A DNA stretch of 28,467 nt. It comes from a virus. This document shows, in pieces, positions 7,271 through 12,813 of this stretch; positions within the stretch are counted from its first letter, which is position 1; every line of letters starts with the position of its first letter. The translations under genes were made by a program, and so were the position numbers. The notes under the pieces were generated by a model. That model saw only the letters and a program-made list of their open reading frames with translations. It was not told where the DNA came from and did no database searches. The stretch lies in the IMG/VR virus record IMGVR_UViG_3300031772_000213, positions 1-28,467 of that record, one strand, 5' to 3'.

Positions 7271-9490
7271 ATGAGCGCGTTCATTCGCAGGTTCCTGTTC
7301 GATCCCGGCATCGAGACGCTGCTGGAGATCGAGAGCGTCAACATCCTCGATCTCGATCCGCCCGCGAGCATCAGCGGCATCGGCACCGGTACCGCACTCA
7401 TCGTCGGTGAGTTCGAGAACGGTGGCTTCGCAACGGATGACGGGCCGAGCGAGGTGACGGGCGCGACCGACTTCCTCACCCGCTTCGGCGGGTTCGGCTA
7501 TCAGTACAGCGGCGTGGGCGCGAACAACCCGTGCGCTCGAGCTCGCAAGGCCGACGGCGCGCTGCTGCCAGAGTTCTGGAACGGCAACGGGTTCATCAGC
7601 CTGGTGAACAAGCGCTTCCGCCGACTCATCATCGCGCGTGTCGACACGAGCGTCGGTGAAGTCACGTTCACGCGACTCGCGTGCCTGAGCGGCGTCAACA
7701 ACCCAGCCTTCGACATCGAGCCGGGCCAGACGATCGTGACGGACAGCGGCGGCGGTCCGTTGGTCGCGACCTTCACGGCCGTCGTCGGCACGGTCGCGTC
7801 TGGCGTCGGCGTCTACCCGACGCTGTTCGTCGGTGGTGAGCAGCTCGTGCTCACGGTCGATGGTGGAACCGTGAATCAGATCGGACCCATCACGACGACG
7901 TTCCTCGCTGCCGATCAGACGCAAGCGCAGGTCGTCGCGCGCATCAATGCGGCCATGGGCTTCGCGTGCGCAATCGTCAGCGGTGGTGGCGTCACGACTT
8001 TCGTCGGGCGCCAGCGTGGTACGGGCGGCAACATCCAGATCGTCAGCGCCAGCGCCAGCGTGCTCGCCGCAATCAACATCGTCGTGGGCACGACCGCGGG
8101 GACGGGCAACGTCTCGAACATCGACGCCGTCACGATTGCCGAGGCGAACACGATCATCAGCGCAGCGAACCCGGACCTGGTTGTCAGTCGCAACGCAGAA
8201 GGCAACATTCAGATCTGCGACGTCGTCGACGGCGGCACTGGCATCCTGACGATCACAGCGGCGAGCACGGCGACGGGCTTCGGCTTCGATCTCCCGTCGA
8301 CTGCAGACGCGACCATCGGCACGGCCGGCTCGATCCCCGCAGGCACGCGCGTTCGTAACGTGGGCGGTACCGAGTGGGTAACGATGCAGGACGTCGCGGT
8401 CGCCGATGACAGCTCGGGCCCGTACACCGCGAAGGTGCGCCCGGCGACGGATGATGGAACGACGCTTGCGGCGGCGGTCGCCACGGTCAACGTGTTCCCG
8501 TTTCCGATCTCAGTCGGCTCGTTCTCGGTGACGAACCTGCTCGGGCTGAGTCCCGCGCTCACCGAGCCACAGCTCGACGCGAAGTACCTCGATGCGATCG
8601 ATACCACGCGCAACTTGAACAACGTGGGCGCTGAGACGAACGTGATCTGGAGTTCACGTCAGTCGAACGCGATCCGCAACGCGCTGCTCAACAACGCGCT
8701 GCTCGCCAGCTCCGAGGGCTGTCTCGGTCGGCAGTGTGTCGTGCGCCCTCCGCTTCGCACCACGTCGCGAGCGACGGCCGAAGGCAACGCGCAGCCGGGC
8801 GTCGGCGCCTCGCGCGACCAGCGACTCATCTACGCCTACCCCGGCGTGCAGACGTTCTGCTCACAGATCGCAGCACGCGGTACGGCAGGCGGCGCTGGGT
8901 TCACGGCCAACGGTGTGCTCGACGTTCCCTTCGACGGGTTCATCGCCAGCGTGATCTCGCAGCTCCCGCCCGAGGAGAACCCGGGCCAGCAAACCGCGTT
9001 CCTCATCGGCGTGCTCGGCATCGAGGCGAACAACGTCGATGTCCAGAACCTCACGATCGTCGACTACACGAACTTCCGGTCGAAGGGCATCGCGGCGCCG
9101 CGAGTGGACGGCGGGGCGGCGTTCATCCAGTCGGGCGTCACGAGCGTTGACCCGCTGGTGTTCCCGAACCTACGGAACATCGCTCGTCGGCGGATCGCTG
9201 ACTTCATCCAGGACACGTTGGCGCGTCGTCTCAAGAGCTTCGCGAAGAAGCTCAACAGCCGGGGGCGTCGTGCGCTCATCGCGCAAGAGGTCCGGGCTTT
9301 CATGCAAGGGCTCGTCGACGCAGGACGCATCGACGGCTTCTTGCTCGACGCGATCAGCGGCAACACCCCGACCACGCTCGCTCAGGGAATCTTCCGCATC
9401 ATCTTGAAGGTGCGCTCGCTGTCGAGCCTCGACTCGATCGTGCTCGAGACGACCGTCGGTGAAGGCGTCGACATCGCCGAAGCTGCGTGA
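7271..9490 (+). CDS. Contractile tail sheath protein
   Basis: At 739 residues this is a long sheath subunit, polymerising around the tube and contracting to drive it into the cell. The N-terminal domain carries ISGIGTGTALIVGEFENG and DFLTRFGGFGY, as in sheath families, followed by a strand ending RRLIIARVD. Residues about 185-353 are an inserted beta region that looks like two tandem copies. The C-terminal domain has LIYAYPGVQTFC, VPFDGFIASVISQLPPEENPG and FPNLRNIARRRIADFIQDTL, matching the conserved core that locks sheath to tube. The tube gene follows after 33 bases. No strong ribosome site is visible; a TAGACG box lies about 30 bases upstream. Confidence 0.95.
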   Translation: MSAFIRRFLFDPGIETLLEIESVNILDLDPPASISGIGTGTALIVGEFENGGFATDDGPSEVTGATDFLTRFGGFGYQYSGVGANNPCARARKADGALLPEFWNGNGFISLVNKRFRRLIIARVDTSVGEVTFTRLACLSGVNNPAFDIEPGQTIVTDSGGGPLVATFTAVVGTVASGVGVYPTLFVGGEQLVLTVDGGTVNQIGPITTTFLAADQTQAQVVARINAAMGFACAIVSGGGVTTFVGRQRGTGGNIQIVSASASVLAAINIVVGTTAGTGNVSNIDAVTIAEANTIISAANPDLVVSRNAEGNIQICDVVDGGTGILTITAASTATGFGFDLPSTADATIGTAGSIPAGTRVRNVGGTEWVTMQDVAVADDSSGPYTAKVRPATDDGTTLAAAVATVNVFPFPISVGSFSVTNLLGLSPALTEPQLDAKYLDAIDTTRNLNNVGAETNVIWSSRQSNAIRNALLNNALLASSEGCLGRQCVVRPPLRTTSRATAEGNAQPGVGASRDQRLIYAYPGVQTFCSQIAARGTAGGAGFTANGVLDVPFDGFIASVISQLPPEENPGQQTAFLIGVLGIEANNVDVQNLTIVDYTNFRSKGIAAPRVDGGAAFIQSGVTSVDPLVFPNLRNIARRRIADFIQDTLARRLKSFAKKLNSRGRRALIAQEVRAFMQGLVDAGRIDGFLLDAISGNTPTTLAQGIFRIILKVRSLSSLDSIVLETTVGEGVDIAEAA

Positions 9491-9523: not shown

Positions 9524-9982
9524 ATGGCGAAGTTCGGAACCGAAGCGCGGCTCAAGGGCCAAGAGGTCGAAGTGCGAGTCACGCAGGACGGAGCGCAATC
9601 CCTCGCCTTCACTGCGGTCGCGTCGTTCAGCGACACGACGAAGTTCGAGAAGAAGGAAGACGGCTTCATCGGCGAGACGACCAACCGCTACGATGACATC
9701 TTCAACGGCTACGACGGGTCGCTGGAAATGCAGGTGTCGAACCAGCAGTGGATGGAGTTCCAGGCTGCGGTAAAGCTGCGCGCGACGCGCGAGCAGCCGA
9801 ACATTCAGTTCAACTTCGTGCGTACTGACTTCTACGCGAACGGCGACACGCCGAGTCGCACGTACATGGATGTGAAGTTCGGCGGCCAACCGACGGCCAT
9901 CGCCTCGCGCGGTGACTTCGTGAAGGTGACGATCGACTTCTCATGTTCCGACGTCGCAGATGATCTGCAGGGCGTGCTCTGA
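9524..9982 (+). CDS. Tail tube protein
   Basis: The 152-residue product is the size and form of the gp19-like tube subunit that stacks in hexameric rings to make the DNA channel. It is beta-rich with a short central helix. Typical features are VTQDGAQSLAFTAVASFS near the N-terminus, the charged loop TKFEKKEDGFIGETTNRYDD, NGYDGSLEMQVSNQQWMEF, and C-terminal strands ending FVKVTIDFSCSDV. The gene follows sheath and precedes the chaperone and tape measure, the canonical order. A GGAG lies about 9 bases before the ATG. A 110-base gap follows, with no terminator visible. Confidence 0.88.
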   Translation: MAKFGTEARLKGQEVEVRVTQDGAQSLAFTAVASFSDTTKFEKKEDGFIGETTNRYDDIFNGYDGSLEMQVSNQQWMEFQAAVKLRATREQPNIQFNFVRTDFYANGDTPSRTYMDVKFGGQPTAIASRGDFVKVTIDFSCSDVADDLQGVL

Positions 9983-10092
9983 GTCGACGTCGGTAAGAAG
10001 ATCACCACGTTCGTCGTTGCTCCGGAAACGCGGCCGGCGCACCTCTCGCGGCGGGCGTGGTGGTCGCTAACTCGGAAAGAGAGGATACGAGG

Positions 10093-10554
10093 ATGGCGGA
10101 CGAAACGATTGTGGAAGAACCGGTTCCGGAGATCGAAGGCGCAACGCCAGACTGGGTGGTGCTACCTCCCGATCTGAAGATCCCTCCAGGGCGCGTGGTC
10201 GCGTTCCTGAAGTTCCGAGCGGAGTGGACCGACACGCCGAACAACGGCGACCGACAAGCCGTCGTCTGGAACCTGACGGACACCGACGAGAAGCTGGCCC
10301 TCAAGCGCGCCGCATCGGGTGACGCGATGACGATCGCCGGTGAGCTCGGGCGCCAGGCGATCCGCGCAGTCGATGGCGTGAAGGTGAACTGGATGTTGCC
10401 GAACGGGCCTGGCTCCATCGACCAGTTCTGGCGTGAGATCGGATCGAAGTGCCGGCAGATGGTCACGCGCTGGTACACGCAGAACCACATGCTCACGCAA
10501 GCGGAGCAGACTGATTTTTTCGAGAACTGCGTCGTGCTCAGGACGATGGGCTGA
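10093..10554 (+). CDS. Tail assembly chaperone, zero-frame product (gpG-like)
   Basis: This 153-residue product lies between tube and tape measure genes, the place of the tail assembly chaperone. Such proteins coat the tape measure during tail assembly and are absent from the finished virion. It has an acidic N-terminus, a core beginning TPDWVVLPPDLKIPPG, and a helical C-terminal half. The ATG at 10093 has AGAGAGG about 8 bases upstream; an in-frame GTG at 10057 lacks such a site. Near its end the codons GAT TTT TTC contain a T TTT TTC heptamer, and the -1 frame is open from 10515 to 10850. A minority longer product, like lambda gpG-T, is therefore expected. Confidence 0.82.
   Translation: MADETIVEEPVPEIEGATPDWVVLPPDLKIPPGRVVAFLKFRAEWTDTPNNGDRQAVVWNLTDTDEKLALKRAASGDAMTIAGELGRQAIRAVDGVKVNWMLPNGPGSIDQFWREIGSKCRQMVTRWYTQNHMLTQAEQTDFFENCVVLRTMG
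10515..10521 (+). other. -1 ribosomal frameshift site, T TTT TTC
   Basis: The heptamer reads GA[T TTT TTC] in the zero frame and fits X XXY YYZ. It lies in a 40-base window: the -1 frame opens just after a TGA at 10512-10514, and the zero-frame stop is at 10552-10554. A possible stimulatory hairpin (CGTGCTC at 10533-10539 with GAGTACG at 10557-10563, one G-U pair, 17-base loop) starts 11 bases after the heptamer. That spacing is a little long, so the structure is less certain than the heptamer. Confidence 0.8.
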
Positions 10555-10853
10555 ACGAGTACGAGGACGGCACGCCGCTCTCGCAGTATCGGCAGCAAGA
10601 GCGGCTGCACGTCCTCGCCCGGTTCACGGGCTCGTTTCTCGACGCGGTCTTCCAGCACGTCATCCCGTTCCCCGACGTCGACGAGTTGCTTGCGATGCGT
10701 CGCAAGCAGGTTGCCTTCCTCGCGCGGTACGGCCGACAGTCGATGCTACAGTGGGGCGACGTCGAGACGAGCGTGATCAACGACTGCGTCGAGGACATCG
10801 CGGAGCTTCTTCGCGAAGAGAATGCGATGGTGAGCAAGCACGACGATGACTGA
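10515..10853 (+). CDS. Frameshift extension of the tail assembly chaperone (T domain)
   Basis: After slippage the ribosome reads from CGA at 10521 and adds 110 residues before the TGA at 10851-10853, giving a fused product of about 253 residues from 10093. The extension looks like real protein: it starts RELRRAQDDGLNEYEDGTPL, is mostly helical (QERLHVLARFTGSFLDAVF; ELLAMRRKQVAFLARYG) and ends in acidic EDIAELLREENAM...KHDDD. In lambda, the T domain of gpGT binds tail tube protein while the G domain binds the tape measure; the same division is inferred. There is no ATG, GTG or TTG near its beginning. Its end overlaps the tape measure start by 8 bases (ATGACTGA). Confidence 0.8.
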   Translation, partial: FFRELRRAQDDGLNEYEDGTPLSQYRQQERLHVLARFTGSFLDAVFQHVIPFPDVDELLAMRRKQVAFLARYGRQSMLQWGDVETSVINDCVEDIAELLREENAMVSKHDDD

Positions 10854-12813
10854 CGTGAATGTCCGCACAAAGCTGACGCTCGACGATGCCGCGAGCGGCG
10901 CGCTCAACCGCATCCGAGAAGGGTTCAGCGGCGTTGCCGATGCCTCGCACGGTGCCGAGGGTGGGCTTGGCTTCTTGAAAAGCACGCTCTCGCAGATCGT
11001 CGCCTTCAACTTCGCGCCGATGATCGGGCAGGTGAAGGAATGGATCGGGAGCTTCGTCGACGCAGCATCGTCCGATCAGCAGGTAACGCGCACGCTGACC
11101 GCGCTTGGCATCGCGATGGAGGGCTTGCCGATCGACGAGGCGACGAAGAAGGGTCAGGAGCTGAACGACGCGCTTGATGACATGGCGATCTCAAGCGGCG
11201 AGTCGGGTGACGCGCTGGCGTACGCGTATCAGCGGCTCGTTGAGATCGGTGGCGGAGGAGCGGGCTCGCTCGACAAGGCACGCGTCCAGCTCGACTCGCT
11301 CGTGAAGGTAGCTGACGTCATGGGTAAGGACGTCGGCACCATCGCCGGTGAGTTCGGCTTCATGCAGGAAGGCATCCTTCGGACGAAGGCTCCGTTGTTC
11401 AACCTGCTCAAGAGCACGGGCATCTTCGGCGACAACGTGAAGAAGGCGGCCGGTGAATGGGCGAAGTTGACGGAGGAGGATCGCGCGAAGCTACTTGCGA
11501 AGGGTCTCGATCAACTCGGCAAGTCGGTTGCTGCTACGCCGCCGAGCTTCGCGAAGCTGGTGACGTCGTTCGAGGAAATCGGTGGCGTGATGAAAGAGGT
11601 GATCGGCGGGCCCATTGTGAAGGCCCTTATGCCGATCCTCGAGAACCTGAAGAACACCTTCACGTCGCATCGCGCGGAGATCGAGAAGTGGGCGACTGCG
11701 CTCGGCACTGACGTCGGCAAGTGGGTGACGGAAGCCGGCGCGAAGATGCAAGAGGGGTTCAACTGGATCAAGGATCATCAGGCCGAGATCCGGTCGGCGA
11801 TCATTGATGGGGTCGAACGAGCCGAGGCGCTGGTGAAGTTCATCCTTGCGCACAAGGAGGAGATCGCGATCGCGTTCGGCGCGAAGTCAGTGGCCGGGTC
11901 AAGCCTCGTCAAGACAGGCGTCTCGGTCGCGTCGGCGGTTGCGAAGTCGGGTGCGGCGGGTACCGGCGCGCTCGGGCTCGCCGGCGCCGCAGGCGGTGCT
12001 GCCGCGCTCGCTGCGTTCGGAGCTGCGATCGCCGGCGTCGCCGCGGCTGCGTGGCAGGGCAAGAAGCTGCTCGATGAGACGCAGGGCGGGATGTCCGCTG
12101 CCGAGCAAGACATCGACGCCATCCAACGAAAGTTTCTCGAGGGCGTGAAGTCGGGCGGCGGCTACGGCGAATGGAGCGACGCGCAGCAGCAGGCCTTCAC
12201 GCACATGCGTGAGAACCTCGTCTCGCTGTCCGAGTCAATCGGGAAGTCAGGGCGAGAAGCAGGCGCGCTCGCCGATCAGGCCTTCGAGGCGCACAAGGCG
12301 ATGCGTGAGCAGGTGCAGGGTTACGAACGCGCAGCCGAGATTGTCGGCAAGCTCGAAGCGACGGGCGGCACCGAGGCGCTTGACCTTACGCCGACCGCGC
12401 AGATGTTCGTGACCGGCATCCAGAACGCAGCAGCAGCAGGCAACAGCGGATTGCTCGGGTACATCGGCAACATTCTTGGTGGGGCGACCAGCCTGCGCAG
12501 CAGCTTCATCACGGCAGGCGGGCTCAGCTCCGAGGCCTACCTCGCACTGGCCGATGCCGTGCGTGCGCAGCACGCGGACTTCGCGAAGACGCTCGAGGAT
12601 CTGGCTGCGAACGCCAAGCCGGGCGGCGGGAAGCCCACGACAACGAAGCCGGCACCGGCGAAGGTCAGCATCGGCGGCGGCAACACGTTCCAAATCAAAC
12701 AGGACTTCCGCGACCAGGACCCTGACCGCGTCGCGACGGTGTTTCAGCGGGACATCGTGCGAGCAGCGGTCAACCGAGCCGGTTCAGGTCGGGGTAACTT
12801 CTTTGGCTTCTGA
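10846..12813 (+). CDS. Tape measure protein
   Basis: At 655 residues this is the largest tail-interior protein. It fixes tail length and passes through the tube at infection. The N-terminus (VNVRTKLTLDDAASGALNRI) matches the usual opening of tape measure proteins. Long Ala/Lys/Glu helices run to about residue 340, followed by a hydrophobic Ala/Gly-rich stretch at about 340-403 resembling the membrane-active part of such proteins. Further helices and a Pro/Lys/Thr linker near 588-600 follow. I see no transglycosylase or peptidase motif. The usual rule of about 1.5 angstrom per residue predicts a tail near 100 nm. The start overlaps the chaperone extension by 8 bases. Confidence 0.9.
   Translation: MTDVNVRTKLTLDDAASGALNRIREGFSGVADASHGAEGGLGFLKSTLSQIVAFNFAPMIGQVKEWIGSFVDAASSDQQVTRTLTALGIAMEGLPIDEATKKGQELNDALDDMAISSGESGDALAYAYQRLVEIGGGGAGSLDKARVQLDSLVKVADVMGKDVGTIAGEFGFMQEGILRTKAPLFNLLKSTGIFGDNVKKAAGEWAKLTEEDRAKLLAKGLDQLGKSVAATPPSFAKLVTSFEEIGGVMKEVIGGPIVKALMPILENLKNTFTSHRAEIEKWATALGTDVGKWVTEAGAKMQEGFNWIKDHQAEIRSAIIDGVERAEALVKFILAHKEEIAIAFGAKSVAGSSLVKTGVSVASAVAKSGAAGTGALGLAGAAGGAAALAAFGAAIAGVAAAAWQGKKLLDETQGGMSAAEQDIDAIQRKFLEGVKSGGGYGEWSDAQQQAFTHMRENLVSLSESIGKSGREAGALADQAFEAHKAMREQVQGYERAAEIVGKLEATGGTEALDLTPTAQMFVTGIQNAAAAGNSGLLGYIGNILGGATSLRSSFITAGGLSSEAYLALADAVRAQHADFAKTLEDLAANAKPGGGKPTTTKPAPAKVSIGGGNTFQIKQDFRDQDPDRVATVFQRDIVRAAVNRAGSGRGNFFGF

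Follow-up and report, generated by a model that had tools for sequence, protein, structure and literature searches.

Between the tail tube and tape measure genes of an uncultured bacterial virus in IMG/VR (record IMGVR_UViG_3300031772_000213, whose whole stretch of 28,467 nucleotides is here called the window), there are two overlapping open reading frames (ORFs), of which the second has no start codon near its beginning. The question that this locus raises is how the second frame comes to be translated, if it is translated at all. With a probability of roughly 0.94, we consider that a −1 programmed frameshift at the sequence T TTT TTC would yield two tail assembly chaperones from one start. 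The features on which this reading draws are collected in Table 1.

Table 1. Coordinates of the tail module features discussed, numbered along the window.
Feature	Position	Strand	Remarks
Tail sheath protein (contractile tail)	7271..9490	+	739 aa; phrog_23, 5.1e-10; Phage_sheath_1C, 6.6e-6, marginally below the Pfam cut-off
Tail tube protein, upstream neighbour	9524..9982	+	Weak match to phrog_365 tail protein; homologues in L002 and L003
Putative zero-frame tail assembly chaperone (lambda G / P2 gpE equivalent)	10093..10554	+	153 aa; ATG start
Slippery heptamer T TTT TTC	10515..10521	+	In phase; zero-frame codons GAT TTT TTC
−1 frame extension (T-like domain)	10515..10853	+	110 aa after the slip; without its own start codon near its beginning
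Zero-frame stop TGA	10552..10554	+	30 bases past the heptamer
Strong predicted RNA hairpin	10562..10617	+	Inside the extension coding region; begins ~40 nt downstream of the heptamer
Tape measure protein	10846..12813	+	phrog_1538 tape measure, 1.4e-6

Overlapping reading frames in the tail module

The genes at this locus run in the order sheath, tube, chaperone, and tape measure, and the tail module of the window also encodes baseplate wedge gp25-like and J-like proteins. Taken together, the sequences of the sheath and of the gp25-like and J-like baseplate proteins identify the tail as contractile. The chaperone ORF, which has an alternative in-frame start (GTG at 10057), closes at its 3' end with ...GCG GAG CAG ACT GAT TTT TTC GAG AAC TGC GTC GTG CTC AGG ACG ATG GGC TGA. 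In the original prediction, the heptamer was placed at 10515-10521 and the −1 frame was described as closed upstream by a TGA at 10512-10514 and then open from 10515, with 110 codons beyond the slip, until a TGA at 10851-10853; against the sequence and its translations, all of this proved exact to the base. After the slip, the −1 extension reads RELRRAQDDGLNEYEDG...ELLREENAMVSKHDDD (RELRR...HDDD), and the tryptic peptide expected across the −1 junction would be WYTQNHMLTQAEQTDFFR, against WYTQNHMLTQAEQTDFFENCVVLR for the zero frame. An early start in the −1 frame had also been said to be lacking, and in fact there is no ATG, GTG, or TTG in the first 170 bases from the heptamer, with the first such codon being the TTG at 10686 and the next the ATG at 10695. 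Moreover, the GC content by codon position in the −1 frame (0.72/0.34/0.82) is a coding composition like that of the adjoining genes. From the zero-frame stop to the tape measure ATG there are 291 bases, and other mechanical ORFs cover the same stretch in the third frame (10433-10849, plus strand) and on the minus strand (10538-10870), so that a gene caller might pick one of these instead of leaving a gap.

As regards the heptamer, TTT makes up 17 of the 356 Phe codons (5%) in the main genes of the window, and given the residues Asp-Phe-Phe, the chance of GAT TTT TTC is ~1.3% under the window's codon usage. Among the ten in-phase XXXYYYZ sites in these genes, T TTT TTC is the sole T-run. The −1 frame stayed open by chance in 2.8% of shuffles; in DNA of 65% GC, an open −1 frame is by itself weak evidence, and it is homology that carries the case.

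Conservation of the arrangement among relatives

To avoid a bias towards the heptamer, relatives were gathered via the neighbouring sheath gene and without reference to the slip site. This set comprises 32 virus loci in IMG/VR (the L002 and L003 contigs included) and one bacterial contig (L106), which is titled as a Methylocystis MAG. Removal of identical copies left 20 distinct relatives with the full stretch, which together with the window make 21 members. L002 and L003 were found by the chaperone-based search as well, and both show T TTT TTC in the corresponding codons, along with a −1 protein that resembles the window's. Profile searches revealed that the chaperone is present wherever a sheath-selected contig reaches it, and the extension ORF, invariably in the −1 frame, was found in all loci that are not truncated ahead of it. 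One contig (L081) that had been a candidate for a relative without the chaperone was rejected, as it ends inside the N-terminal part of this protein, and a single weak match from an order-wide genome search (G289/L110) was dismissed for having no chaperone-like ORF of tail context.

In all 20 distinct relatives with full DNA, a homologous chaperone ORF is followed by a homologous −1 extension ORF, and 18 of the 20, plus the window, have T TTT TT[C/A/T] at the same codons, in one alignment column. Codon usage alone would give the heptamer with an expectation of 0-17% per locus, for a joint chance of ~1e-37 if the loci were independent, a figure that shared ancestry makes indicative only. The extensions of the relatives are 20-44% identical to that of the window, which implies a deep divergence of the family. 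With the heptamer, its phase, and a homologous extension conserved in the relatives, the open −1 frame is thus far beyond chance. The two relatives that have no canonical heptamer read T TTC TTC (L089, 8562-8568) and G TTT TTT C (L094, 8698-8704) at the site, and the −1 extension is intact in both; the shift may take a less regular course in these two (in L094, for instance, slippage of a single tRNA on TTT), or their sequences may contain errors. Here, we also looked for homologues without the heptamer in which the −1 frame is closed, and found none of the homologues with full DNA to have a closed −1 frame, with the two lacking the canonical heptamer keeping the extension. Compared in sequence with its nearest relative (L096), the −1 extension is under purifying selection, the dN/dS being about 0.36 (0.51/1.41) for the extension and about 0.40 for the chaperone part, while the remaining two frames of L096 contain 5 and 4 stops.

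These same comparisons bear on other ways in which the second frame might arise. It might be a gene in its own right, with translation beginning internally (TTG at 10686 or ATG at 10695) by coupling or re-initiation, and an ATG does occur in several relatives at a comparable spacing from the heptamer (about +150 to +190), ahead of the C-terminal part, where conservation is highest. Yet an internal start would cut 55-60 residues from the beginning of the extension, a part in which the comparison with L096 still shows −1 frame conservation, and it would leave the in-phase T6 heptamer in 18 of the 20 relatives unexplained, which makes a separate gene very improbable. RNA polymerase might instead slip on the T6 run to produce mRNAs of altered length, as the run is a homopolymer, and it is T7 in one relative (L095). 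The family, however, keeps the codon phase X XXY YYZ and most members have not lengthened the run, and since efficient transcriptional slippage in bacteria usually requires longer runs, we see scarcely any chance for this route either. Finally, the window being a metagenomic fragment, one gene might have been split by misassembly or by a frameshift mutation of recent date, but the family effectively refutes this, as 20 distinct relatives, drawn from many metagenomes and one bacterial MAG, are split at the same site and in the same direction.

Predicted folds of the two domains

The AlphaFold2 model of the zero-frame protein (pLDDT 86) has as its top Foldseek match in the PDB the HK97 tail assembly chaperone (PDB ID: 2OB9; E 0.85, prob 0.51). 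Structural alignment of this model with VIA-align gave a Z of 6.5 for YqbN (PDB ID: 3KLU; 107 residues, rmsd 4.9) and a Z of 5.1 for 2OB9 (93 residues, rmsd 4.1), values that are middling and come with a sequence identity of only 4-6%. The next rows were 5IR0 (Z 4.0; unknown function, PICI-like element) and then an unrelated one at 2.3. Several viral models in BFVD named tail assembly chaperone also match the zero-frame model (E 0.004-0.04). Independently of gene order, the predicted zero-frame fold resembles those of the HK97 tail assembly chaperone and YqbN, a likeness that is suggestive, not conclusive; the proteins that were matched are ones that the gene order would lead one to expect, and a common fold is not by itself proof of function. 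The extension is modelled as a helical domain (pLDDT 82), for which the fold comparison gave no convincing match. That the −1 sequence would be helical and protein-like was part of the original prediction, and is in keeping with this model, the coding composition, and the purifying selection. As for its central claim, a −1 programmed frameshift in a chaperone gene stands as the best explanation, with the heptamer, its phase, the −1 direction, and the extension all conserved in a family gathered blind to the heptamer, and with a predicted fold that is chaperone-like.

Database searches and novelty of the family

When all 21 members were searched against PHROGs, the chaperone had no match at E 0.01 and the extension one stray match to an unnamed PHROG. 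No Pfam family was matched by the window's chaperone or extension, and neither these two (tblastn) nor the sheath had a match among 50,697 deposited phage records. Viral contigs yielded no match when the extension was the sole query, a search of genome contigs with the chaperone alignment turned up no relative, and Rfam gave no match. A degenerate nucleotide motif for the slip site hit 70 loci, none of them tblastn-related to the window's tail proteins. By these searches, the chaperone family is previously undescribed, while the site and the mechanism are textbook ones. The finding leaves the understanding of the frameshift mechanism unchanged, and extends the rule of the frameshifted tail chaperone to a phage lineage without relatives in deposited phage genomes. 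Annotation of such phages, in which the extension will probably be overlooked or called wrongly, is aided by the 21-member alignment of both domains with its near-universal slippery site. As a separate observation, the sheath without a deposited-phage match defines an uncultured contractile-tail lineage (32 IMG/VR loci and one Methylocystis MAG).

Proposed mechanism and comparison with known systems

The locus had originally been likened to the G/GT arrangement of lambda. The frameshifted chaperone logic of this comparison holds, but lambda does not stand as the nearest analogue, since the tail is contractile and P2 E/E+E' is therefore the nearer precedent. In P2, E/E+E' arises by a −1 frameshift at a T6G site, and the extension, which has no ribosome site of its own, runs into the beginning of the tape measure gene (PMC3931495). 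P2 and the window have in common a contractile tail, a chaperone gene before the tape measure gene, a T6 heptamer, a −1 shift, and an extension overlapping the tape measure start. In contrast to the T6G of P2, the heptamer ends in C in the window (and in A or T in some relatives); the zero-frame protein, at 153 aa in the window, exceeds that of P2 in length, many relatives have a more extended N-terminus, and no sequence similarity was detected by tblastn against the 50,697 phage records, a search that distant homology may escape. Lambda, for which the slippery site is GGGAAAG, shares the short chaperone in excess and the −1 extended form with a T domain, and differs in its non-contractile tail and unrelated sequences. 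In that phage, the tape measure is bound by numerous copies of gpG and a few of gpGT, whose T domain brings in the tube protein (PMC5009743).

In the window, most ribosomes would end at the TGA at 10552 and so make the 153-aa chaperone. A minority, with their tRNAs paired to TTT and TTC, would slip one base back onto TTT TTT and read on in the −1 frame, adding the 110-aa helical domain to reach a total of 253 aa. If the roles known from lambda and P2 carry over, the tape measure protein would be coated by the short form and tied to the tube protein by the extended form, which would let the tube build up around the tape measure. What the sequence shows is the site and its phase, the two homologous domains with their conservation, and a predicted fold that is chaperone-like; slippage, its frequency, and the binding partners are what we infer.

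Possible stimulators of slippage

In the 100 nt after the heptamer, the RNA of the window folds at a z of −3.8 against shuffles. Folding of the first 60 nt past the heptamer is no stronger than that of coding sequence with comparable GC, and 10526-10585 alone folds at a z of about 0. The predicted hairpin listed in Table 1 is farther from the heptamer than a usual stimulator, and its role is uncertain. On average across the family, the 50 nt starting 0-12 nt from the heptamer start are more structured (mean z about −0.8, sem 0.3), and there is strong structure near the heptamer in L083, L095, L097, and L098. This suggests a stimulatory stem just past the site, as a family average and in individual members, and no conserved element is claimed. 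A Shine-Dalgarno-like GGAG is present upstream, and was set aside as a stimulator for being no stronger than synonymous codons would give; across the family, the Shine-Dalgarno-like signal is hardly above synonymous shuffles (mean z −0.36, sem 0.17).

Overlap with the tape measure start

An overlap between the extension and the tape measure start had been predicted, and we observed one, with the extension's TGA at 10851-10853 and the ATG at 10846 giving an overlap of stop and start at 10846-10853 (ATGACTGA). Stop and start also overlap or nearly abut in some relatives (e.g., L075, L090, L095, L096, L097, and L101). Coupling of the extension stop with the tape measure start was rejected as a general feature, as the gaps in other relatives reach >100 nt, and in some members of the family frameshifting might be linked to the translation of the tape measure. 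A broader reading would have an undescribed chaperone family, in an uncultured contractile-tail lineage, in which some members (L089 with T TTC TTC and L094 with G TTT TTT) shift −1 outside the X XXY YYZ rule and in which frameshifting may tune tape measure translation where the extension stop overlaps the tape measure start; this we regard as rather unlikely, and put forward tentatively.
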